From: Pacificibacter marinus
GTDB taxonomy: Bacteria > Pseudomonadota > Alphaproteobacteria > Rhodobacterales > Rhodobacteraceae
Length of the DNA: 64,000 nt
Assembly: GCF_900109555.1 (NCBI RefSeq)
Contig: NZ_FNZV01000002.1
Coordinates: forward strand, 310,001 to 374,000
Direction of reading: 5' to 3'
Position 1 is the stretch's first letter. Each line of letters opens with the position of its first letter. Shown here in pieces: positions 6,499 to 46,339 of the stretch. Below the pieces are notes generated by a model. It had not been told where the DNA came from. It made no database searches and saw nothing but the letters and a program-made list of their open reading frames with translations. The translations under genes and the position numbers were made by a program.

Positions 6499-7938
6499 AT
6501 GTACATAGGTTTGGATCTCGGGACTTCAGGTCTTAAGGGCATTGTGATGGACGATGACCAAATTATTTTGGCAGAGGCGCATGTGTCATTGACCAATGAA
6601 CGCCCATTTGATGGCTGGTCCGAGCAAAATCCAGCGGCATGGATCGCCGCGACGGACACCATCATGCAAACCTTGAAAACCAAGATTGATCTAAGCGCTG
6701 TGCAGGCGATTGGTTTGTCGGGCCACATGCATGGCGCTGTGCTTTTGGATGCTGAGGATACGGTGCTACGCCCCTGTATTTTGTGGAATGACACTCGCAG
6801 CGCGTCCGAGGCTGCCACTTTAGATGCCGATCCACAGTTCCGTGCGCTCACCGGCAACATTGTTTTCCCCGGTTTTACAGCTCCTAAATTGGCATGGGTT
6901 AAAGCGCACGAACCCGATATTTTCAAAAAAATGGCCAAGGTTCTATTGCCCAAAGATTACCTGCGTTTGTACCTGACAGGTGATTATGTCGCCGAAATGT
7001 CGGATGCTGCGGGCACCAGTTGGCTCGACACAGGCGCGCGCGATTGGTCAGACGCCTTGCTCGCGGCCACAGATATGTCACGCGATCACATGCCGCGCCT
7101 TGTCGAAGGCTCTGAAGTTTCAGGCCAATTGCGAACCGCTTTGGCGCAAAAATGGGGTGTCCAAGCCTCTTGCGTTATTGCTGGCGGGGGCGGTGATAAT
7201 GCCGCGTCTGCCGTTGGTGTCGGTGTGGTTAAAGCGGGGCAAGCCTTTGTTTCTTTGGGAACATCTGGTGTATTATTTGCAGCCAATGATGGTTACCAAC
7301 CCGATGCCGACACAGCAGTACATACGTTTTGTCATGCTGTGCCCAACACGTGGCACCAGATGGGCGTGATCTTGTCAGCGACCGATGCTTTGAACTGGTA
7401 TGGCCGTTTTGTAGGGCAAGATGCCGCTGCGCTCACGTCGCAGCTTGGCGCATTGCAAGCTCCGACAAAAACACAGTTTTTACCCTATTTGGGCGGTGAA
7501 CGTACGCCGTTGAATTCGGCCAGCATTCGCGGGGCCTTTACTGGTCTTGAGCATGCCACAGACACCGCAGCCGGTACGCGCGCAGTGCTTGAAGGGGTGA
7601 CATATGCCATTCGTGATTGCCGTGATGCTTTGGCCAAAACGGGCACTAAAATTGATCGACTTTTGGCCGTCGGTGGCGGATCACAATCAAAATACTGGGT
7701 CGAAGCCATCGCAACTGCGCTGGGAACATCTGTTGACTTGCCTGTTTCTGGTGATTTTGGCGGGGCCTTCGGGGCTGCGCGGCTTGGTCAAATGGCCGCG
7801 TCAGGCGGGGGAGCTGAGCTGGCTTCAGCGCCTCAAATTCACGCAACGATTGATCCAAATCCATCTCTTATATCCGCGTTTGATGCTGGCTTTGCCCGGT
7901 TCAAAGCGGGCCAAGCTGCCGTAAAGGACCTGACATGA
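6499..7938 (+). CDS. xylB: Xylulokinase
   Basis: A 479-residue FGGY-family kinase that phosphorylates D-xylulose to D-xylulose 5-phosphate. It shows the N-terminal phosphate-binding motif [13 protein letters not shown], the [13 protein letters not shown] segment, a WNDTRS substrate contact, the central [14 protein letters not shown] ... SLGTSG block and the C-terminal [10 protein letters not shown] adenosine motif. ATG at 6499 is chosen over the longer frame from 6400 because it sits just before the conserved start and has a GGGAGAA ribosome site. The stop overlaps the xylA start by four bases (ATGA). Expression is probably controlled by the adjacent ROK repressor through the operator at 6376. 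Confidence 0.95.
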
Positions 7939-36858: not shown

Positions 36859-38667
36859 ATGACCTGCTTTACGAATTTTGAATTCAGCCTTGCCTCTGCC
36901 TCTGTCGGAGCACTTTGGGTCGTCTGTGCATTTGTTGCGGTGTGGGTCGCACGGAACAATAACTTTGCTGGAAAGCCTGCGTTTATCGTCGCATTCTCGG
37001 GGATGCTTTGGTGGTTTTTTACGGTCGTCATTGATTTGAGCTCACATGGGCTACCATGCAAGATGTTGTGGTCTTTGGCCGCGTGGCCTGGGATTGTGTT
37101 ACTTCCGATGGCTTGGGCGTTTTTCTTGTTCGACTATACGATGAACACCAATCAAGCGCGTAAGCCGTTCCGCTTGATGTTGTATATTATTGTGCCCACA
37201 ATAGTGAGCATCGTTGCCACCACAAATGGCCAGACGCATCTTATTTATGGCGTGGATACCCAGCTTGTGGACACTGGGGGCAAAGCATTCGTTGTATATG
37301 ACCATGGTCCTTTCTTTTACGTTGTCGCCGCGTTCCTATACCTCTTTGTCATGAGCGCCTTGAGCGTGCTCATCTATGCCTTTTTCAAAGCTAAAAAGAG
37401 CGTCCGGCCTTTTTTGGGGGTCCTGTTCATCATCACGGCGACTCCATTGGTGGCCAATATCGCTTATGTCGGTTGGGGGATGGCGCTTTTCGGGCTTGAT
37501 CCGACACCATTCATGTTTGCTGTGGCTCTCATGGCATTCAGTTGGTTGATTTTGAACAACTCGATGATGGATACGGAAGCCCAAGGGCGAAACCTTTTAT
37601 TCTATGCCACACAAGACCCTGTGATCATCATGGATGCAGGTGGTAAGTTTGCCGGTGCAAATTCTGCGGCAAAATTGTTATTTGGCACACAGATGCCGAA
37701 AAATGGCGACACTGTGGATCACTTAGAAATAATTGGTCCGAGATTGCAGGAATTCAGAGAGACCGGCGAACTGAACTGTGCAGAGGCTATCCGGCTGGGG
37801 GGGCGTGTTTTCGATTTGCGGACCCTGCCAATTGAAAGCCCAATCCAGACTAAAAATAATCTGCTGGGGTGGTCCGTTTCACTGATGGATATCACGGAAA
37901 GGGAACGCTCGGCTGAAGTCCTGCGTGAGGCGGTGGCACATGCGGAAGCCGCAAACCACGCGAAGTCCCAATTTCTTGCAATGATCAGCCACGAATTGCG
38001 CACCCCTATGACATCGGTCAAAGGAGGATTGGATTTGGCGCTTCACGGGGCCTTAGGCGAGGTTAGCGACCCTTTGAAAAACGTGCTGACCATCGCTCAA
38101 AGAAACAGTCTTAGGTTGTTGAAGCTCATAGATGATGTTCTTGATCTTCAAAAAATCGATCTCAAAGAAATCAATCTTAAGTTGCAGGATTTAAACTCAC
38201 AAGAATTCTTGCAGGACATTATCGAGGAATACGATGCCTATGCCTCGAAAGAAAATATTAAGCTGGACATCATTTCAGATGGCAAGAGTTGGCCGTTGCG
38301 CGCCGATATTCATCGGTTGAAGCAGGTCGTTGGGAATGTAATTTCGAATGCCGTTAAGTTTTCTCCAGAAGGAGGACATGTCGAATGCTCAACGCATGTG
38401 GTTGGCTCGAATTTGAGGTTTTCAATTAAAGATAGTGGAATTGGCATTCCACAAGGCAACGAGGATCAAGTTTTCGGGCGTTTCAACCAAGTCCCGAGTT
38501 CCTCGTCCAAGGCGTCTGGTGGGTCCGGCCTTGGGATGAATATTGCCAAGCTTCTGATCGAGCATATGGATGGTTCTATTTCATATGAAAGCCACATTGG
38601 CACCGGCACGACGTTCTACATCGACATACCGCTTTCGCCCCAAGGCGATTTGGGACAGGCGACATAA
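36859..38667 (+). CDS. Histidine kinase with N-terminal 7TM sensor and PAS domain
   Basis: A 602-residue membrane kinase. Seven hydrophobic segments lie between residues 12 and 232, resembling the 7TM region found at the N-terminus of some histidine kinases. A PAS-like domain follows (about 245-350, ending in MDITERERSAEV). The HisKA box is AKSQFLAMISHELRTP with phospho-His 378. The ATPase domain shows VVGNVISNAVKFSPEGG (N box), DSGIGIP and GGSGLGMNIAKLL. There is no receiver domain, so the phosphate must go to a separate protein; the stand-alone receiver at 41258 is the nearest candidate. ATG 36859 lacks a clear ribosome site. Confidence 0.85.
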   Translation: MTCFTNFEFSLASASVGALWVVCAFVAVWVARNNNFAGKPAFIVAFSGMLWWFFTVVIDLSSHGLPCKMLWSLAAWPGIVLLPMAWAFFLFDYTMNTNQARKPFRLMLYIIVPTIVSIVATTNGQTHLIYGVDTQLVDTGGKAFVVYDHGPFFYVVAAFLYLFVMSALSVLIYAFFKAKKSVRPFLGVLFIITATPLVANIAYVGWGMALFGLDPTPFMFAVALMAFSWLILNNSMMDTEAQGRNLLFYATQDPVIIMDAGGKFAGANSAAKLLFGTQMPKNGDTVDHLEIIGPRLQEFRETGELNCAEAIRLGGRVFDLRTLPIESPIQTKNNLLGWSVSLMDITERERSAEVLREAVAHAEAANHAKSQFLAMISHELRTPMTSVKGGLDLALHGALGEVSDPLKNVLTIAQRNSLRLLKLIDDVLDLQKIDLKEINLKLQDLNSQEFLQDIIEEYDAYASKENIKLDIISDGKSWPLRADIHRLKQVVGNVISNAVKFSPEGGHVECSTHVVGSNLRFSIKDSGIGIPQGNEDQVFGRFNQVPSSSSKASGGSGLGMNIAKLLIEHMDGSISYESHIGTGTTFYIDIPLSPQGDLGQAT

Positions 38668-38787
38668 GACGTTTCAGGTTATGATTGTTGCAAGATAGGG
38701 CGTCATTCACAAGAGTGGGCGTATTGATCACGTGCTGCGTCATTAATCCGTGCGCCACAGGATTGCCCGTGGGTATCCAACGTCACA

Positions 38788-40143
38788 TCAGATGCAGGGA
38801 AGTTCCACGATGAATGTTGTCCCTAGGCCATCGTTCTTGCTGTATGCGATCTCGCCGCCCAGCGTTTCCATTATGCGTTTTGAGATGTTCATACCTAGAC
38901 CCGTGCCGCCGATTTTTCGCGTGTCCGAAGAGTCGACTTGCGTGAAGGGGTCGAAAACCGTGTCATAGTTATCTGGTGAAAGCCCCATACCACTATCGTT
39001 AAAGAGCACGCGAGCGGTGTCGCCATCCGTTTCCATAGATACGAAAACATTACTTCCCACAGGTGAATATTTGGCTGCATTCGACAGTACATTCGAGAAC
39101 ACTTGGCCCAAGCGCTTTTTGTCAACGGATACCACGACATCATTTCTGGGCGGTGTCGCCACGAATGTGACGTCTAGCTTCGCAGCGTAAGGATTGTTGT
39201 TAGAAATGGCATCCTCGACGGCATGCCACAGCTTGATGTCCTGAAAGTCAAACAGCATCGCTTCTGTTTCGATGTCTTGCAGATCAAGAATTTCGTTTAT
39301 CAAACCGAGAAGACGTTCACTGTTGCGTTGCGCTGCCTGCAAAAGAGCTTCGGCTTTTTCGGGTATTTCACCCACTTTTCCTGACGCCACGATATCGACC
39401 GCGCCCTTAATGACTGTCAAAGGTGTTCGAAGCTCATGACTCATCGTCGATAGAAATTCAGTTTTGGCCTTATATGCAATTTTGGATTTTTCGTGTTCAT
39501 TGCGCAGATTTCTGAGTTGGGACAATTGAGACTTATAAAAGTGCTGATAAATCCGTGAGCATTCGACGATGAAAAACAGCACAAAGATACTGGTAAAGAG
39601 TTGCGCCCAAAGTTCTGAATGAAGCGGCGCGCCCGTAATAACAATGTCTCGAACAGGGATGAACAGAAATGCTAAACCATAACACGCGAGCCGCAAGAAC
39701 AAGGCCGACGGCAATTGGTGGTTGTTCATTGACGCAAAAAGAGCCGCAGCAAACAAGAAAAATAGCGGCATAAAGTGCGGGATCGGCCCCTGCAGGGTGG
39801 CGATCCAGATCGCATATGTGATGATCACGGACGCACTTATGAGAGTGCTGATGGCTATCAATATATGAAACTGACGCACCTTGCGCACATCGAACGTCTG
39901 GCAACGCAGAATGCGGCGAAACAAATAGAAGTCGAATAATTCTGACGAGAGGATCATCGCCAAAACCACACCGGCCAACACTATATCGTAATAGAATGCG
40001 GCTAAGCCAAGAGCGGCCAAAAAAATCACCTGACGTTGCCACACCAAGGAAATCCCAAGTTGACTATAGTCACGTAGTTTCTGGGCAAGGATGTCGACGT
40101 CAGCGTCACACATCGCGGTTAATTTTCTAAACGGCACGTACAC
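38788..40143 (-). CDS. Multi-TM histidine kinase
   Basis: A 451-residue kinase with about six membrane segments in residues 35-200, different from the 7TM kinase next door. HisKA is KAKTEFLSTMSHELRTP with phospho-His 236. The ATPase shows VFSNVLSNAAKYSPVGS, DSGMGLSP and QVDSSDTRKIGGTGLGMNISKRIME. No receiver domain is attached. The frame opens with GTG at 40143 after GAGAGATAGAT; ATG 40113 is a possible alternative. It is convergent with the 7TM kinase and divergent from luxI, with a palindrome and direct repeats between, which suggests co-regulation with the signal synthase. Confidence 0.85.
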   Translation of the reverse strand: MYVPFRKLTAMCDADVDILAQKLRDYSQLGISLVWQRQVIFLAALGLAAFYYDIVLAGVVLAMILSSELFDFYLFRRILRCQTFDVRKVRQFHILIAISTLISASVIITYAIWIATLQGPIPHFMPLFFLFAAALFASMNNHQLPSALFLRLACYGLAFLFIPVRDIVITGAPLHSELWAQLFTSIFVLFFIVECSRIYQHFYKSQLSQLRNLRNEHEKSKIAYKAKTEFLSTMSHELRTPLTVIKGAVDIVASGKVGEIPEKAEALLQAAQRNSERLLGLINEILDLQDIETEAMLFDFQDIKLWHAVEDAISNNNPYAAKLDVTFVATPPRNDVVVSVDKKRLGQVFSNVLSNAAKYSPVGSNVFVSMETDGDTARVLFNDSGMGLSPDNYDTVFDPFTQVDSSDTRKIGGTGLGMNISKRIMETLGGEIAYSKNDGLGTTFIVELPCI

Positions 40144-40179
40144 ATCTATCTCTCATCATTTCATTCGGCGCCTAAAATG

Positions 40180-40191
40180 TAACCGCGGTTA
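40180..40191. promoter_or_regulatory. 12-bp perfect palindrome upstream of luxI and the kinase gene
   Basis: TAACCGCGGTTA lies in the divergent region, 37 bp from the start of the minus-strand kinase. It is a plausible operator; the binding protein is unknown. Confidence 0.45.
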
Positions 40192-40257
40192 TTCATTTTG
40201 AATCGCCATCTTCGTTTGATCCAACGCCGACCTTGACTAGACCCTTTGATTGGGACG

Positions 40258-40276
40258 AAATCATGATCAATGATGC
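40258..40276. repeat. Direct repeat copy 1 upstream of luxI
   Basis: AAATCATGATCAATGATGC. It recurs with one mismatch 62 bp downstream, about six helical turns. The copy contains an ATCAT/ATGAT dyad around five bases, as in many dimer operators. Confidence 0.55.
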
Positions 40277-40319
40277 AATAAACTTTGCCTTTGATTACTT
40301 AAATAGGTTGATTGAGGCA

Positions 40320-40338
40320 AAATCATGGTCAATGATGC
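40320..40338. repeat. Direct repeat copy 2 upstream of luxI
   Basis: AAATCATGGTCAATGATGC. It differs from copy 1 at one base and also keeps the ATCAT/ATGAT dyad. The 62-bp spacing is not a multiple of three, so the repeat is conserved as DNA and not as a protein repeat. Confidence 0.55.
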
Positions 40339-40411
40339 GGCAAATTAGTGTTGATCTATATAATAAAAAAGAAGTGCGGACCGCAGGCCGCGAGCATGAG
40401 CAGGCTACCAA

Positions 40412-41197
40412 GTGATTGAAAGCAAAAAGGCCAAACGAGCCTTTCCCAAGCTGCTTCCGCAGCACGAGTTTGATTGTAAAGAGCCGTCATCTATCAGGCG
40501 GCCTTTCTTTGCTTTTGGTTCGGGATCGAAAACGCCACGCGAAGCTGAGCCCGAGACTGTGAAGGTGCCACAGCTAGAAGCAGAACTGCCAGTGGATAGT
40601 CCGTTTGAAATTGAGGCGACAACGCTTTCGGTGCGTAACTTTCACGAATATGGCGATCTTTACTCTCGCTATTTGCGCGGCCGGCGTGACGTGTTCATCA
40701 TTGAAAAAGGATGGCAGTTGCCAGAAACCGATGGCATGGAGTTCGATCAATATGACACGCCACTTGCGCGGTGGATTGTTCTGCAAGGCAACGGCACAGT
40801 CTTGGGCGGTGCCCGCATTTCACCGACAACGGCGCAATGCGGTAATCACAGCTATATGTTAAGAGATGCGCAGCTTGGTCTGCTTCCAGGTTTGCCTGCC
40901 GACATGCTTGATGAAACGGCCCCTGTTGATAAAGAAATCTGGGAAGCAACGCGGCTATTTTTGACAGAAGCCGTGCCAACAGAGCTGCGTATGCAAGTTC
41001 AAAGCAGCTTGATGCTTGAAATGGCTGCCGCAGCACGCAGTGTAGGGGCCACTCATATTATTGGTATTGTTCCGGCGGTATTTAAGCGCTGGTTGAAGCG
41101 CATTGGCATGACTGCGACAGAGATGGGCCCGGTTAAAATCATTGATGGTGATAGGGTGCAAGCAGCGTTAATGAACGTGGTCGATGGTGTAGCTTGA
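40412..41197 (+). CDS. luxI: LuxI-type acyl-homoserine-lactone synthase with N-terminal extension
   Basis: A 261-residue autoinducer synthase starting at GTG 40412. All the invariant LuxI residues are present at the canonical spacing: Arg91, Phe95, Trp101, Glu110, Asp112, Asp115, Arg135, Glu178 and Arg181 (equivalent to R24, F28, W34, E43, D45, D48, R68, E97 and R100 of EsaI). It should make an acyl-homoserine lactone from S-adenosylmethionine and acyl-ACP. The first 67 residues are an unusual charged extension with no LuxI counterpart. No luxR gene is found within the window; instead it is embedded among four histidine kinases and one receiver. The upstream direct repeats and palindrome are probable control sites. 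Confidence 0.85.
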   Translation: MIESKKAKRAFPKLLPQHEFDCKEPSSIRRPFFAFGSGSKTPREAEPETVKVPQLEAELPVDSPFEIEATTLSVRNFHEYGDLYSRYLRGRRDVFIIEKGWQLPETDGMEFDQYDTPLARWIVLQGNGTVLGGARISPTTAQCGNHSYMLRDAQLGLLPGLPADMLDETAPVDKEIWEATRLFLTEAVPTELRMQVQSSLMLEMAAAARSVGATHIIGIVPAVFKRWLKRIGMTATEMGPVKIIDGDRVQAALMNVVDGVA

Positions 41198-41257
41198 TCA
41201 CATCAAACACATGACGTGAAAAGTATCACTCCAAGTGACAAAACATGTTTTGTTACT

Positions 41258-41674
41258 CTAGTGCCTTTGTGGATTTGCAACTCTAGCCTGAAACGCATTT
41301 GTCCAAACGTCAACGATTTCCGAAGCCACAGTTGTTGGGTCCAGCGGTTTTTTGATGATTGAATATGTGCCGCAATTCATGAACATTTCCTGATCTTCAT
41401 GCGTAACTTTTTCAGTCATAAAAATGGCAGGTGTTTGATCAAATCCGGGGATCTCGCGTAAGCGCCGAAGTGTTTCGATACCGTCTAATTTCGGCATAGT
41501 CACATCGAGTAGGAACAAATCCGGAGCGTACTTTGCAACGACTTCAAGAGCCTGACAACCAGAGCTGCATTGAACAATCGATAGACCACCGATCGCATCT
41601 AAAGCGCGCTTGGTGGTTTCCTGAATGTCCTGTTCATCTTCGATGTGCAGAATTAATGGTGCAGCGTTCGCCAT
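41258..41674 (-). CDS. Stand-alone response regulator receiver protein
   Basis: A 138-residue CheY-like single domain. The acidic pair is Glu12/Asp13 (HIEDE), phospho-acceptor Asp57 (LFLLDVTMPKLDG), the switch Thr near 87 and Lys109 (IIKKPLDP). No DNA-binding or enzymatic output domain is present. ATG 41674 follows an AAAGGAAA site; the frame opens at 41737. It is the only receiver in a cluster with four receiver-less kinases, so it is the likely shared phosphate acceptor, passing the signal to an output protein elsewhere. Confidence 0.88.
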   Translation of the reverse strand: MANAAPLILHIEDEQDIQETTKRALDAIGGLSIVQCSSGCQALEVVAKYAPDLFLLDVTMPKLDGIETLRRLREIPGFDQTPAIFMTEKVTHEDQEMFMNCGTYSIIKKPLDPTTVASEIVDVWTNAFQARVANPQRH

Positions 41675-41704
41675 GAGAGCTTTTTCCTTTTGCTCACTAA
41701 GAAA

Positions 41705-42082
41705 ATGATGTCCAAGCTGGAACTGAATTCTGATCATTTACGGAACATCGAAGCTGTTACATCTATGATGTACGCAGACAAGACGAGAGCAAATTTGGAC
41801 AACTTAATGTTCCGTTTTTATGATCTAAGTTTGTGGCGTAATTATGCTAACAAAAGGTTAACAATAGGACGGAAGCGGACAGGTTGGTCTTTGGTTTGTA
41901 TTTCAATCGACGTAATCTGCGCTGCGGTATGTCTTGTGATTTTATTCATGAAATCAATAGCTTGGTCCGATTGGATCAATGCGGCTATGGCTCTGACGGG
42001 AGTAGGGGCAAGTTACTGTGCAAAAGTCACGGCACGTAGTCGGTTCTTGATCAGTACAGATAAATGTCAGCAGTTTTTCTGA
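41705..42082 (+). CDS. Hypothetical protein with two predicted membrane segments
   Basis: A 125-residue frame with no recognised family. The N-terminal 60 residues are polar and helical (including NLDNLMFRFYDLSLWRNYANK). Two hydrophobic stretches follow, near residues 62-83 and 90-107. It starts 31 bp from the divergent receiver gene and has only a weak ribosome site. Codon use is AT-richer than in the sugar locus, like its neighbours. It may be a small membrane protein of the signalling cluster or a chance frame. Confidence 0.4.
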   Translation: MMSKLELNSDHLRNIEAVTSMMYADKTRANLDNLMFRFYDLSLWRNYANKRLTIGRKRTGWSLVCISIDVICAAVCLVILFMKSIAWSDWINAAMALTGVGASYCAKVTARSRFLISTDKCQQFF

Positions 42083-42112
42083 TTAAACGTTGCAGCCCCT
42101 AGAGTGGTTGGT

Positions 42113-42271
42113 TCACCTATATACCGAAGCCTTTTTTGGTTTTAGGGCCAACAATATCTTGGTTTTGGTGGCCTGACTGCGCAGGAAAAGAGTGACATCG
42201 GTAAAGGTCAATTCGGACGCTACATAGCGGAGTGTGCCACTTTTACCGGAAATGCGCCTCATAATTGTCAT
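42113..42271 (-). CDS. Small protein, 52 residues, with perfect Shine-Dalgarno
   Basis: A short minus-strand gene. ATG at 42271 is preceded at ideal spacing by AAGGAGGAAAC, the best ribosome site in this region. The product is basic (MTIMRRISGKSGTLRYVASE at the start, with KPKK near the end) and has no signal peptide or known domain. It fills the gap between two plus-strand genes and is divergent from the secreted protein at 42377. Evidence is the ribosome site plus an uninterrupted frame; no homologue is recognised. Confidence 0.5.
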   Translation of the reverse strand: MTIMRRISGKSGTLRYVASELTFTDVTLFLRSQATKTKILLALKPKKASVYR

Positions 42272-42376
42272 GTTTCCTCCTTAATAGACTTTTATCTTGA
42301 GAACAATATGGTCGAATTCACTTGATTGTGGTTACACTTGATGTTGAAAGGTCGACCAAATAAGGGGCCATTGAAT

Positions 42377-42838
42377 ATGATACGAACTGCTTTTTATGCT
42401 GCTACATTTGCAGCCTTTGCCTTACCAGTTGCCGCACAAACTGTTTTGACTGTCTCAAATGATGACAGTTCGTTAGAGTACGATCTCGCTGCACTTCAGG
42501 CTTTGCCTCAAGTAGAATACGCGACGAAGAATGCGTTCATTGATGGCTCTAGTGTGTTTTCAGGGCCTCTTTTAAGGGATGTGCTTTCGTCTTCGAATTT
42601 GCTTGATGATGAGATGGTTCGAATGGTCGCCATTAATGATTACGAAATTTCGTTTCCCGTATCGGATGCGCTTGAATTTGATGTCATCATTGCAACCCAG
42701 ATGGACGGCGCGCCCATGTCCGTGCGCGAAAAGGGACCATTGTGGGTTATGTACCCAATTTCGTCGGACCCCAAGCTAGAGGATTCAATCTATAAAGGTC
42801 GGATTATTTGGCAGCTTGAGGAAATCATTGCGGAATGA
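42377..42838 (+). CDS. Secreted sulfite-oxidase-fold (molybdopterin-type) protein lacking the Mo-binding Cys
   Basis: A 153-residue exported protein. A signal peptide (FYAATFAAFALPVAAQT) is followed by a domain with features of the small Oxidored_molyb fold: DLAALQALPQVEY, VFSGPLLRDVL, VRMVAINDYEISFPVSDALEF and KGPLWVMYPISSDP. The mature chain has no cysteine, so it cannot ligate molybdenum in the usual way. The stop overlaps the next kinase start by four bases (ATGA). This coupling suggests a periplasmic ligand-binding partner for that kinase and not an enzyme; this is inference. Confidence 0.7.
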   Translation: MIRTAFYAATFAAFALPVAAQTVLTVSNDDSSLEYDLAALQALPQVEYATKNAFIDGSSVFSGPLLRDVLSSSNLLDDEMVRMVAINDYEISFPVSDALEFDVIIATQMDGAPMSVREKGPLWVMYPISSDPKLEDSIYKGRIIWQLEEIIAE

Positions 42839-44181
42839 AACCACGCGCTTTCCAGCTCAAGCTGGTTCTTTTTGGCTTTGCGATTGCAGGATTAATTGCC
42901 GCAACCCTTAGCCTCGTGGGCTTGCGTACTCAGATTTTACAAGTGGGTGATAGCTCGTCAACGGGGCCGATCTGGTTCGTGACGGCAATTGAGCGCGACG
43001 TTCAAGAGTTCCAGATCGCCATCGCCAGCTATGAATTGGGTTTGGGGACCTTTGAAAATGCGAACCTGAGGTTCGACATTCTTTGGAGCCGTGTTAGCGG
43101 GGCAAATCGTGGGGAAGTCGCTGATAAATTGTTAGAGTATCAGGTCGACACATCGGTCATTAATCTGCTGCAAGTTAAACTGCTACAGTACGAGCAGCTT
43201 GTGATGAACATTGATACGGCGAGTCCTGCATCGATCCACAGTATGATCAATGACTTCAATATTTTGAACCGCGACATTCATGGATTGGCACTTGACGTCC
43301 TGCAGGCCTCATCGAATGAAACACGAGAGTGGCGTGAAGCATTGCTCCGTATTTCTGGTGAGAATGTAGCGATTGGGGTTGCCATTGGGCTGACGGCACT
43401 GGCTTTGATTTTGTTACTGCGATTGGATGCTGTCGCAGCCAGAAATCAACTTGCGGAAAAAGATGAGCTTTTAATTGCCGCAGAGGCTGCCAATCTGGCT
43501 AAATCGGAATTTATTGCTGCCGTTAATCATGAACTCCGTACCCCTTTAACGTCGATCAGTGGGGCCATTTCGCTCATGGGGTCGGGCGCTTATGGTGAGG
43601 TTCCTGAAGCGTTTAAAAAGCCCATTCAGATCGCGTCGCGCAATGCCAAGCAGCTTGGCGTTTTGATTTCAGACTTACTGAATGCTGAAAAATTGTCGTC
43701 AGGAAGTATGAATTTTCATGCCGATGAAATGGATTTAGCATCCTTTCTAACTGAACAGGTTGAAAGTAATAAACCGTATGTCGAGACCTTCAATGTAGAG
43801 TTGTCTTTAAACGCCAATTTGCCCAAACTATCTGTGCGAGGAGACCGCCAAAGATTGGGGCAGGTCTTAGCCAATTTGATCTCAAATGCAGCTAAATTTT
43901 CTAACGCGGGCACCCAAGTTGTTATAGGCTTGGAGCGGGTTCAAGACCGCGCTGTTATAAGTGTAAAAGATCAAGGTAGAGGGATTCCTGAATCCGCAGG
44001 CGAGCGACTTTTTGAACGTTTTCAACAAGTTGATTCGTCTGACGCTAGGGAGCGCGGAGGCACCGGCCTAGGGCTTTCAATTGTCAAATCTATCGTTGAC
44101 GCACATGGTGGTACGGTTTGGTATGATAGCGTTTTAGGAAAAGGGACGACGTTCTATTTTGACCTTCCATTAGAATCCTAA
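42835..44181 (+). CDS. Histidine kinase with periplasmic sensor domain
   Basis: A 448-residue kinase. TM1 lies at residues 8-29, a helical periplasmic domain at about 30-175, and TM2 at about 178-196. HisKA follows (LAKSEFIAAVNHELRTP, phospho-His 232), then an ATPase domain with VLANLISNAAKFSNAG, DQGRGIP and RGGTGLGLSIVKSIVD. It has no receiver. It is translationally coupled to the secreted sulfite-oxidase-fold protein, which may deliver the signal to the periplasmic domain. Confidence 0.88.
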   Translation: MKPRAFQLKLVLFGFAIAGLIAATLSLVGLRTQILQVGDSSSTGPIWFVTAIERDVQEFQIAIASYELGLGTFENANLRFDILWSRVSGANRGEVADKLLEYQVDTSVINLLQVKLLQYEQLVMNIDTASPASIHSMINDFNILNRDIHGLALDVLQASSNETREWREALLRISGENVAIGVAIGLTALALILLLRLDAVAARNQLAEKDELLIAAEAANLAKSEFIAAVNHELRTPLTSISGAISLMGSGAYGEVPEAFKKPIQIASRNAKQLGVLISDLLNAEKLSSGSMNFHADEMDLASFLTEQVESNKPYVETFNVELSLNANLPKLSVRGDRQRLGQVLANLISNAAKFSNAGTQVVIGLERVQDRAVISVKDQGRGIPESAGERLFERFQQVDSSDARERGGTGLGLSIVKSIVDAHGGTVWYDSVLGKGTTFYFDLPLES

Positions 44182-44250
44182 ATGAGTAAGCTGCATATGC
44201 CGAACCTCTTTTCGGCTTGCATTCTTTCAAGACGAAAAAAGGTTAAAGAC

Positions 44251-44877
44251 ATGAACGTTTCCTCGACCCTGATCGCTAGTTTTGCTGTTCTGGCAATGGC
44301 CACGCCCCAATTGGTATTTGCAGACGAGGTTCGCCCCGGTGTCACCTTTGCGGGGACCGTTGAGGCAGACGGAACGCCCCGTGCGGAAATGCAAAAAGTT
44401 ATATTTGATTTCGCCGCGGCGTGGACCACTTGTGAACCCGAATACATGACTTCATCGTTTCATGATGACGTGATTTTCTCATACCCGACAACGACGGTTA
44501 CGGGACTTGATGCGATGTTGGCCGATCTGGATTTGTTCTGTAATCAGGCGACTGACACCAGCTTTTATTTCCCAGAAGACGCATTTTACATTGACACAGA
44601 AACGGGCCGAGTGGCTGCAGAAGTGCAATTTCGGACATTCCAAAGAGGCAATCGCCAAGTTGTAAACGACGTCTGGGTCGCCACGATCGTTGACGGGCAG
44701 GGCGCTATTCTCAAGGAATACTTAGATGGTCGCGTAAAGGATTTGCAAGCTCTTGGTGTCCTTACGCTTGAGGAAGATCCTAAAATGCTAACCCCTTGGC
44801 CACCCAGAACCGAAGAATGGGAAACATGTTTCCCAATTGCCAAATCCGCGCCGGTCAACAGCTGTCCACCAACCTAA
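44251..44877 (+). CDS. Secreted NTF2/SnoaL-like protein
   Basis: A 208-residue exported protein. The signal peptide is LIASFAVLAMATPQLVFADE. The mature part has an NTF2-like pattern (FAAAWTTCEPEYMTSSFHDDVIFSYPTTTVTGLDAMLADL ... NDVWVATIVDGQGAILKEYLDGR). Three or four cysteines (CEPEY, FCNQ, CFPI, CPP) could make disulfides. The start is ATG 44251; the frame opens at 44182 directly after the kinase stop. It may bind a small molecule in the periplasm and belong with the upstream kinase pair. Function unknown. Confidence 0.7.
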   Translation: MNVSSTLIASFAVLAMATPQLVFADEVRPGVTFAGTVEADGTPRAEMQKVIFDFAAAWTTCEPEYMTSSFHDDVIFSYPTTTVTGLDAMLADLDLFCNQATDTSFYFPEDAFYIDTETGRVAAEVQFRTFQRGNRQVVNDVWVATIVDGQGAILKEYLDGRVKDLQALGVLTLEEDPKMLTPWPPRTEEWETCFPIAKSAPVNSCPPT

Positions 44878-44903
44878 ACGTACCCTCATATCCTGTAGAT
44901 TTT

Positions 44904-44939
44904 CAGGCGAGCAATGCAGATGCGTTGTTCGCCTGTTTT
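44904..44939 (+). terminator. Rho-independent terminator
   Basis: CAGGCGAGCAA pairs with TTGTTCGCCTG (one G-U) around a 10-nt loop, followed by TTTT. It ends the operon of the sulfite-oxidase-fold protein, kinase and NTF2-like protein. Confidence 0.8.
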
Positions 44940-45052
44940 ATGTGGGGCGTGCAGTGATACCTATTGTCGATGTCTCGGATTAAAGCGTCATTGCGTTCTC
45001 GACAATATGGAGCCCCTTGGGTCTTGGGTCTGTGACATTGAAATGGTTATGA

Positions 45053-46339
45053 CTAAATCCTGCGCGGAGGAAATTTGACTTTGAAGGTTGTGCCAGCGCC
45101 AAGCACGCTTTCATAGTCTATGGTAGCATTGTGCTGTTCGAGGATTTTCTGGCAAATGTGCATGCCTAGCCCGGACCCAGCCTGCGAACGGGTGTCAGAG
45201 CTGTCCACTTGTGAGAACAGGCCAAAAACCTTTGCCTTGGACCCTTCTGGAATGCCTGCGCCATCATCTTTTACCGTGATCTGTGGGCCTGTGTCCAAGC
45301 AGTGCAAACCGATTTCGACGTTGCCATTTGGCTTTGAAAATTTGAATGCGTTGGATAGCATATTTGCGATGACCTGATCCAATTGCGTTTTATCACCATT
45401 CACAAAACAAGGTTGCTCAACACCTGATACCGACAATTTTACGGCTCGATCCGCAGCATAATCTTGGTATGCTATAGCCGATGATTTGATCAAGGTGGCG
45501 AGATCAACAGGGTTAAGTACGGCTTTGGGGCTGCTGAAATTCTCTTTTTGAAGAGTTAGGATATCGCCGATCAAATTCAGAAGCCGTTCGCTATTTTCGT
45601 AAGCGATATTGATTAAACGTTGTGTTTTCTCTACGTCGGCATTTATTGCGTTGCCCTTCATCAAGCCGAGCGCGCCTTTGATCGAGGTTAGAGGGGTGCG
45701 AAGTTCATGGCTGACAATTGCCAGAAATTCACTTTTGGCTCTTTCTGCCGCGATGACTTTTTCCATTGAACTTTGCAAAGATGACGTCATCTCACCCAAT
45801 TCGAGATTTCGGGCTTCAAGTTCTCTTGAATGTTCAACTAAATCTAACTTTTCTCGGTGCGATATCAACAGAGCTGTGATTGCTTTTCCGATCTTTGAAA
45901 GAGACAACTTTACTTCATCGGAGTAAACTTTGGGTTTGATATCCAGAACGCACAGTGTGCCAAGTCGCATTTCGGGTTCGGGTTCTAAAACTGTCCCTAA
46001 ATAGGATCTAATATTTGGCGCGTCGACGACGAATGGATTGTCAGAAAATCTCTCGTCGAGCAGTGCATCTGGCACCTCAAACTGTTGGCTGCCCATAATT
46101 GCATGCGCACACATGGCAATTTCTCTGTCGGTTTGGCGCAAATCCCCAACGCCGATGCTTGCCAGAAAATTTTGCTGCGTTTCATCAATGAGACTGACCA
46201 ATGCGATAGGCGCGTCGGCCAAGTTTGATGCCACTTCGCATAGCCCTTGAATTTCATCGATAGGATGCGAAAGATCGAGCCGTAAGTTTTGAAGAAAAGA
46301 CAGCCGTTCAGCTTCATTCGTGGGGATTGGAACTCTCAT
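45053..46339 (-). CDS. Soluble GAF-domain histidine kinase
   Basis: A 428-residue cytoplasmic kinase. Residues about 20-165 form a GAF domain (CEVASNLADAPIALVSLIDETQQNFLAS ... CAHAIM, GTLCVLDIKP), the group that often reads light, nitric oxide or small molecules. HisKA follows a coiled linker (RAKSEFLAIVSHELRTP, phospho-His 211). The ATPase shows VIANMLSNAFKFSKPNG, DDGAGIPEGS and QVDSSDTRSQAGSGLGMHICQKIL. No receiver domain. The catalytic half is close in motif content to the other three kinases of this cluster. Confidence 0.88.
   Translation of the reverse strand: MRVPIPTNEAERLSFLQNLRLDLSHPIDEIQGLCEVASNLADAPIALVSLIDETQQNFLASIGVGDLRQTDREIAMCAHAIMGSQQFEVPDALLDERFSDNPFVVDAPNIRSYLGTVLEPEPEMRLGTLCVLDIKPKVYSDEVKLSLSKIGKAITALLISHREKLDLVEHSRELEARNLELGEMTSSLQSSMEKVIAAERAKSEFLAIVSHELRTPLTSIKGALGLMKGNAINADVEKTQRLINIAYENSERLLNLIGDILTLQKENFSSPKAVLNPVDLATLIKSSAIAYQDYAADRAVKLSVSGVEQPCFVNGDKTQLDQVIANMLSNAFKFSKPNGNVEIGLHCLDTGPQITVKDDGAGIPEGSKAKVFGLFSQVDSSDTRSQAGSGLGMHICQKILEQHNATIDYESVLGAGTTFKVKFPPRRI

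Follow-up and report, generated by a model that had tools for sequence, protein, structure and literature searches.

A six-transmembrane histidine kinase as the probable receptor for the product of a LuxI-type synthase in Pacificibacter marinus

Acyl-homoserine lactones (AHLs), the products of LuxI enzymes, are in the usual case detected by intracellular LuxR proteins. The LuxI-type synthase of Pacificibacter marinus described here has a different neighbour, the six-transmembrane (six-TM) sensor histidine kinase HK2, and its gene neighbourhood and co-variation suggest that HK2 is probably a dedicated membrane receptor for the LuxI product, which would relay to a lone receiver and/or to RRX, a REC protein of approximately 350 aa. 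The genes lie in the region 36859–46339 of the window, that is, of the whole stretch of 64,000 nucleotides that was analysed (GCF_900109555.1, contig NZ_FNZV01000002.1, 310,001–374,000 of the forward strand; positions are given in window numbering, and the contig is C32 in the numbering of this genome, G000). The LuxI gene (40412–41197, plus strand; 261 aa, with a GTG start and an N-terminal extension of about 65 aa) and the HK2 gene (38788–40143, minus strand; 451 aa) diverge from a common intergenic region (40144–40411), so that the start of LuxI is 268 bp from HK2, and the gene of the stand-alone receiver (41258–41737, minus strand; 159 aa) follows on the other side of LuxI. According to the mechanism proposed here, LuxI would make an acyl-homoserine lactone, the six-TM domain of HK2 would bind this lipophilic signal in the membrane and set the kinase/phosphatase activity, and the phosphoryl group would pass from HK2 to the lone receiver and/or RRX, either directly or through an Hpt protein.

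The window LuxI is intact and predicted to be an AHL maker. Its Autoind_synth domain (PF00765 of Pfam) scores 47.6 bits, with a cut-off of 24, and the solved AHL synthases 3p2f, 5w8a, 5w8c, 6wns, 6wn0 and 1ro5 match it at 5e-12 to 1.8e-5. The original prediction held that every invariant LuxI residue is present, and an alignment of 49 LuxI proteins (window included) bears this out for nine of them: R91, F95, W101, E110, D112, D115, R135, E178 and R181, which we take to be catalytic, are identical throughout, and they are also kept in the LuxI proteins encoded on contigs C26 and C27 of the same genome. The claim that no LuxR-type gene lies in the window agrees with the domain search as well, since no autoinducer-binding domain (PF03472) was found in the window or on its contig; the three that the genome contains are on C26, C18 and C23. 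With no LuxR adjacent to it, the window LuxI does not form a LuxI/LuxR pair. As for the other LuxI proteins of the genome, those of C23 and C26 each lie beside a LuxR gene, and that of C27 has no LuxR on its contig. The fifth PF00765 match of the genome (C21, 26.1 bits) was dropped as a signal synthase, its sequence suggesting an acyltransferase that we label OlsB-like. A weak LuxI relative (30% identity) is also encoded by Pseudomonas phage Y5 (OQ572407.1, 15029–15475).

The partner of this synthase in other organisms was surveyed in 149 genomes of the family Rhodobacteraceae, one per genus, 84 of which match the LuxI at 1e-5. The partner census takes the 64 LuxI places of at least 145 bits, found in 62 genomes, and covers approximately 1 to 9 kb of flank, less where a contig ends; the next place scores 111 bits, and matches at or below this score, of which L089 was inspected, fall outside the census. 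At the kinase-type loci, LuxR was sought by tblastn with two queries (C23 and C26) at 1e-8. The 64 relatives fall into two kinds without overlap or remainder: 16 have an HK2-type kinase and 48 have an adjacent LuxR of the C23 type, none has both and none has neither, and HK2 is absent from the flanks examined in all 48 of the LuxR-linked loci. Within the genus itself 17 of 20 genomes match LuxI; this genome and G153 are of the window type, G159 is of the LuxR type, and the remaining matches score like the LuxR type (the statement refers to scores alone, the loci having been inspected in G000, G153 and G159).

The same division appears in the LuxI tree, in which a single change of partner parts 24 kinase-linked from 25 LuxR-linked proteins (support 95/89). 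This split is recovered in 96% of 200 bootstrap trees and is reached by none of 500 shuffles; seven of the 24 kinase-linked members were found via the kinase, and the unbiased count is the census of 64. When the tree is rooted with two other LuxI proteins the LuxR-linked group is nested inside the kinase-linked group, and because the outgroup branches are long the direction of the change is left undecided. To judge from their sequences, the window LuxI and the LuxR-linked LuxI proteins of the C23 type are one family with the same presumed catalytic residues. A family that is split between LuxR and a membrane kinase, with no exception in 64 cases, makes it possible to study the replacement of a receptor within a single type of synthase.

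The association is equally close when it is viewed from the side of the kinase. HK2 has the HisKA and HATPase_c domains of Pfam and no receiver, and its sensor (residues 1–215, about 215 residues) has no Pfam match; when 15 HK2-type sensors were scanned, single members gave weak matches, the best at 7e-05 to DUF6056. The predicted structure of the sensor contains six membrane-length helices (pLDDT 88.8, pTM 0.80), in agreement with hydropathy, and among the best 25 of its 82 NCBIfam matches all fall in the kinase core. A profile of this sensor has 22 matches in the 149 genera. Twenty score at least 233 bits, and every one of these (14 of which were used in building the profile) is found beside a synthase gene: 16 beside LuxI, and four (in G135, G050, G128 and G006) beside genes of a methyltransferase and a FeeM-like N-acyl amino acid synthase. 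The other two matches, at about 32 bits (G004 and G082), lack any synthase match in their vicinity; they were taken to be different proteins and kept out of the counts. A synthase is present in 34 of the 36 HK2 loci inspected, and in 19 of the 21 that lie outside the profile (10 with LuxI, nine with FeeM and two with neither). Among 80 named loci that match the kinase, the 10 with a match over the sensor were inspected (L092–L101); in the other 70 the match falls on the kinase core and, in a few, extends into a small stretch of the sensor end. Outside the family the sensor was missing from a class-wide draw of 385 genomes, where the only matches at 1e-8 came from this genome and from G189, a member of the same family in which RRX, LuxI, HK2 and the receiver lie together within 5 kb.

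It may be asked whether the pair has come together by chance in a regulatory island, in which case LuxI would be a genuine orphan with no relation to HK2. The pair does look accessory, as such an origin would suggest: a score of the window type is found in G000 and G153 alone among the genomes of the genus with a LuxI match, and relatives are carried by plasmids in Sulfitobacter and Loktanella. A rough calculation, which assumes three synthases in 4 Mb, nevertheless gives a kinase–synthase pair within 1.3 kb in about 0.2% of genomes by chance, and the pairing is seen for 20 out of 20 strong HK2 sensors, which makes this explanation hardly credible. The plasmid collection contains 12 records with HK2, four of which were inspected: seven have LuxI approximately 260 bp away by coordinates, three have FeeM, and the remaining two are both from Loktanella, the one inspected having FeeM. 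Plasmids of Sulfitobacter pontiacus carry the LuxI–HK2 pair, and a plasmid of Loktanella salsilacus carries the set of FeeM, methyltransferase and HK2, a fact that agrees with the picture without proving anything.

The loci in which the kinase accompanies a FeeM-like synthase (a gene that the window does not contain) are nine in number, all with a methyltransferase beside an HK2-type kinase, and they are divided into type B (L085, L086, L099, L101, L174 and L175) and type C (L087, L088 and L172). The three FeeM-like proteins scanned match PF21926, the N-acyl amino acid synthase family, at 1e-38, 9.6e-38 and 1.9e-35, and the methyltransferase is either a soluble S-adenosylmethionine (SAM) methyltransferase or one of the membrane PEMT/ICMT kind. 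The 149 genera contain five strong FeeM genes (117 bits or more, the next scoring 43), and four of the five are beside HK2. In the sensor tree, types B and C each form a single clade with 100/100 support among the LuxI-linked sensors, and the synthase labels need two changes, which is the minimum. The conserved positions of the sensor follow the same division. H123, F128, N141, H142, R151, Y155 and W179 are each present in 25 of 25 LuxI-linked sensors (F124 in 24, P126 in 23). H142 is replaced by S in all six type B sensors, and H123 by R or L in all three of type C, two of which (L088 and L172) are identical and thus not independent. A sensor that changes with the chemistry of the synthase is the pattern expected of a receptor for its product, and a kinase that merely governs luxI expression need not change in this way.

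Over 25 loci the distances between LuxI proteins correlate with those of the HK2 sensor (r 0.77) and with those of the kinase core (r 0.69). Once the core is taken into account, the partial correlation with the sensor is 0.48; for the core, with the sensor taken into account, it is 0.17. Linked genes that are inherited together correlate anyway, so it is only the difference between sensor and core that speaks for co-adaptation. H123 and H142 offer concrete targets in the sensor, and the FeeM loci provide, to the extent that gene content can tell, candidate genes for the synthesis and sensing of N-acyl amino acid methyl esters (NAMEs). That they are the so far unidentified NAME synthesis genes of roseobacters, together with their receptor, is a tentative reading that falls just short of an even chance.

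The main alternative to a receptor is a regulator placed upstream: HK2 could control luxI in response to some other, environmental cue, and the AHL would be read by LuxR proteins encoded elsewhere. Three features would fit such a role: a direct repeat of 31 nt in the divergent promoter, near the start of LuxI (40246–40276 and 40308–40338, 62 bp apart and 87% identical), three LuxR-type genes at other places of the genome, and, at one FeeM locus (L086), a LuxR relative that adjoins the kinase. On the other hand, HK2 is missing from the flanks of the LuxR-linked LuxI relatives, the FeeM-linked kinases form clades of their own and differ at H142 or H123, which is a sorting by synthase chemistry and not just by luxI, and the order and strand of kinase and synthase genes vary among loci (divergent, co-directional, or with the methyltransferase in between), so that a shared promoter is not conserved. 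Among the loci tested, moreover, the repeat is confined to this genome. No further match to its 18-nt core, at up to three mismatches, turns up in the window, and the repeat was discarded as a feature of the module because no such repeat is found upstream of 24 other kinase-linked luxI genes; weaker repeats at L043 and L056 exceed their 20 shuffles and differ from it in sequence. Control of luxI from upstream is, on this balance, unlikely.

Downstream of HK2, the lone receiver is a likely phosphoryl acceptor and RRX a proposed one. RRX is encoded near 16 of the 24 kinase-linked LuxI loci and a counterpart of the window's lone receiver, which by Pfam consists of the receiver domain only, near eight; one or the other is near 20 of the 24, and neither kind is near any of the 25 LuxR-linked loci. 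Counting also FeeM-linked, synthase-less and G189 loci, the receiver is found near HK2 in 12 loci, the window and 11 others. The C-terminal part of RRX is weakly similar to GGDEF domains (a profile matches DosC among PDB entries at 1.5e-4, and Pfam GGDEF is found in three of nine members at E up to 1, the best at 0.0088, below the curated cut-off), and its GGDEF motif is mostly replaced by GxGxF, for which reason cyclase activity is doubtful. In this genome one full-length RRX relative is encoded on another contig (C42; L065, 4258–10599), together with two PAS kinases, an Hpt protein and a further lone receiver. Both PAS kinases group with two kinases downstream of LuxI in G153 (100/100 and 100/99 in the kinase-core tree).

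Several observations weigh against HK2 as receptor. Ligand binding, the direction of signalling, the phosphotransfer partners and the output are inferred. The sensor has no sequence match in the PDB, and a fold search returned nothing below E 0.001, the best being ImcA (E 0.08, TM score 0.39–0.43). No synthase is near HK2 in L095 (a 7.5-kb contig) or in L097 (a metagenome-assembled genome), whose sensors group with the LuxI-linked ones in the sensor tree. Four of the 24 kinase-type loci (L044, L045, L098 and L173) lack both RRX and a receiver in the stretch examined, and RRX is not beside HK2 in this genome. With regard to LuxR, a divergent member at the kinase-type loci of other genomes could escape the two tblastn queries, cross-sensing is possible, since the C23 LuxR has a LuxI of its own that shares about 45–47% identity with the window LuxI and the genome contains a further two LuxR proteins, and tblastn places a LuxR relative (6934–7512) adjoining the FeeM-linked HK2-type kinase of L086 (G050). 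The FeeM loci have exceptions of their own: the FeeM of G010 is a strong match in a genome with no HK2 at 1e-6 and none in the 18 kb examined there, and in L175 the methyltransferase gene is split by a transposase gene.

HK2 is one of four histidine kinases around the synthase, and the original prediction, which had rightly described four receiver-less kinases and a lone receiver around LuxI (Pfam agrees), proposed either a many-to-one phosphorelay or the sensing of AHL through a kinase instead of LuxR. HK1 (36859–38667, plus strand) has the HisKA_7TM, HisKA and HATPase_c domains; HK3 (42835–44181, plus strand) and HK4 (45053–46339, minus strand) have HisKA and HATPase_c. HK3 has a probable periplasmic sensor, about 145 residues flanked by two TM segments, and HK4 has no clear TM segment by hydropathy (one is borderline). 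The sensor ends described as 7TM, multi-TM and periplasmic agree with these features; for the GAF domain ascribed to HK4 no Pfam match appeared in its sensor, even at E 5. In favour of all four kinases converging on the lone receiver, and so combining several inputs with AHL production, their crowding is unlikely at random placement: the genome has 21 kinases that match the HK2 core at 1e-10, and the chance of finding four of them inside 7.8 kb is about 0.00025. Some other loci (L040, L041, L092 and L100) also have neighbouring kinases.

The distribution of the individual kinases, however, is not that of a conserved unit, and as such the four-kinase block was rejected. HK1 has orthologues (59–66%) in G138, G046, G044 and G137, on contigs other than those of the LuxI matches of these genomes; no relative of the HK4 sensor in the 149-genus sample exceeds 40%; and relatives of the MoOx-like partner of HK3 are widespread (82 of 149 genera, three in this genome). 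Neither HK1, the HK4 sensor nor the HK3 partner was found with LuxI in the other genera sampled, the one exception being a MoOx–HK3-like pair near the synthase-less HK2 of L097, and the kinases found nearby at other loci are, in the kinase-core tree, most closely related to other proteins. In that tree, many of whose inner forks are unsupported, HK2 is grouped with two orthologues (99/97). The HK2-type group excludes HK3 and HK4 and, with weak support, includes HK1, which does not bear out the idea that the four arose as a set by local duplication; where the HK1 core came from is left undecided. Convergence of all four on the receiver is thus improbable, and the best reading of HK1, HK3 and HK4 is as bystanders or extra inputs. 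Conservation of the block, which the original prediction had offered as a check, failed for these three kinases and held for HK2, which is kept with LuxI; the idea of AHL sensing through a kinase is well supported, by the census, the sensor tree and the two histidines, for HK2 alone of the four.

Among the closest parallels is the LuxM/LuxN (AinS/AinR) system of Vibrio, in which an AHL synthase works with a membrane histidine kinase that serves as its receptor and passes the signal into a phosphorelay. There, LuxM/AinS takes the place of LuxI as synthase, and the hybrid kinase LuxN feeds LuxU/LuxO. The window is similar in having an AHL synthase beside a membrane histidine kinase, and differs in that the synthase is LuxI and that HK2 has no Response_reg domain by Pfam and six predicted TM helices. 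It differs also from the canonical C23-type LuxI/LuxR pair of the same LuxI family, in which the partner is an adjacent cytoplasmic LuxR and not a membrane kinase. In CqsA/CqsS and LqsA/LqsS a synthase lies next to a six-TM sensor kinase, with another class of synthase and ligand; the likeness to CqsS and LqsS is one of description only, the window sensor having no Pfam or PDB sequence match.

The core idea, that of a kinase beside an orphan luxI with a LuxN-like role, is already known. Orphan roseobacter luxI genes with a histidine kinase upstream were described in seven strains as topologies H, I and J, and a LuxN-like two-component relay was proposed for them, the kinases being up to 26% identical to LuxN (Cude and Buchan, 2013; PMC3824088). 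LuxN is an AHL-responsive hybrid kinase (PMC3824088), and the LuxN–LuxU–LuxO relay has been named as well (PMC8895600). In topology J the kinase has the opposite direction to luxI (PMC3824088), as in the window; the likeness to the three topologies is by described gene arrangement. In the sections of text and appendix available from that paper, the topologies are presented without a LuxR-linked census, a common sensor domain, a regulator or a FeeM variant (PMC3824088), and what the present analysis adds is the partition of partners, the sensor family, the regulator and the FeeM variants. No later paper testing such a kinase was found in the open-licence literature, as far as it could be seen and including PMC8895600 and PMC3907830, which is no proof of absence.

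All the genes named in the region are open frames at the places given. Besides those already discussed, it contains the gene of the Oxidored_molyb-like (MoOx-like) protein (42326–42838, plus strand), which has a signal-peptide-like start and overlaps the start of HK3, and that of a SnoaL-like protein with a hydrophobic N-terminal segment (44182–44877, plus strand; Pfam and hydropathy). Finally, a 24-nt inverted repeat with 12-nt arms that are 92% complementary (41234–41257) lies between the convergent LuxI and receiver genes.

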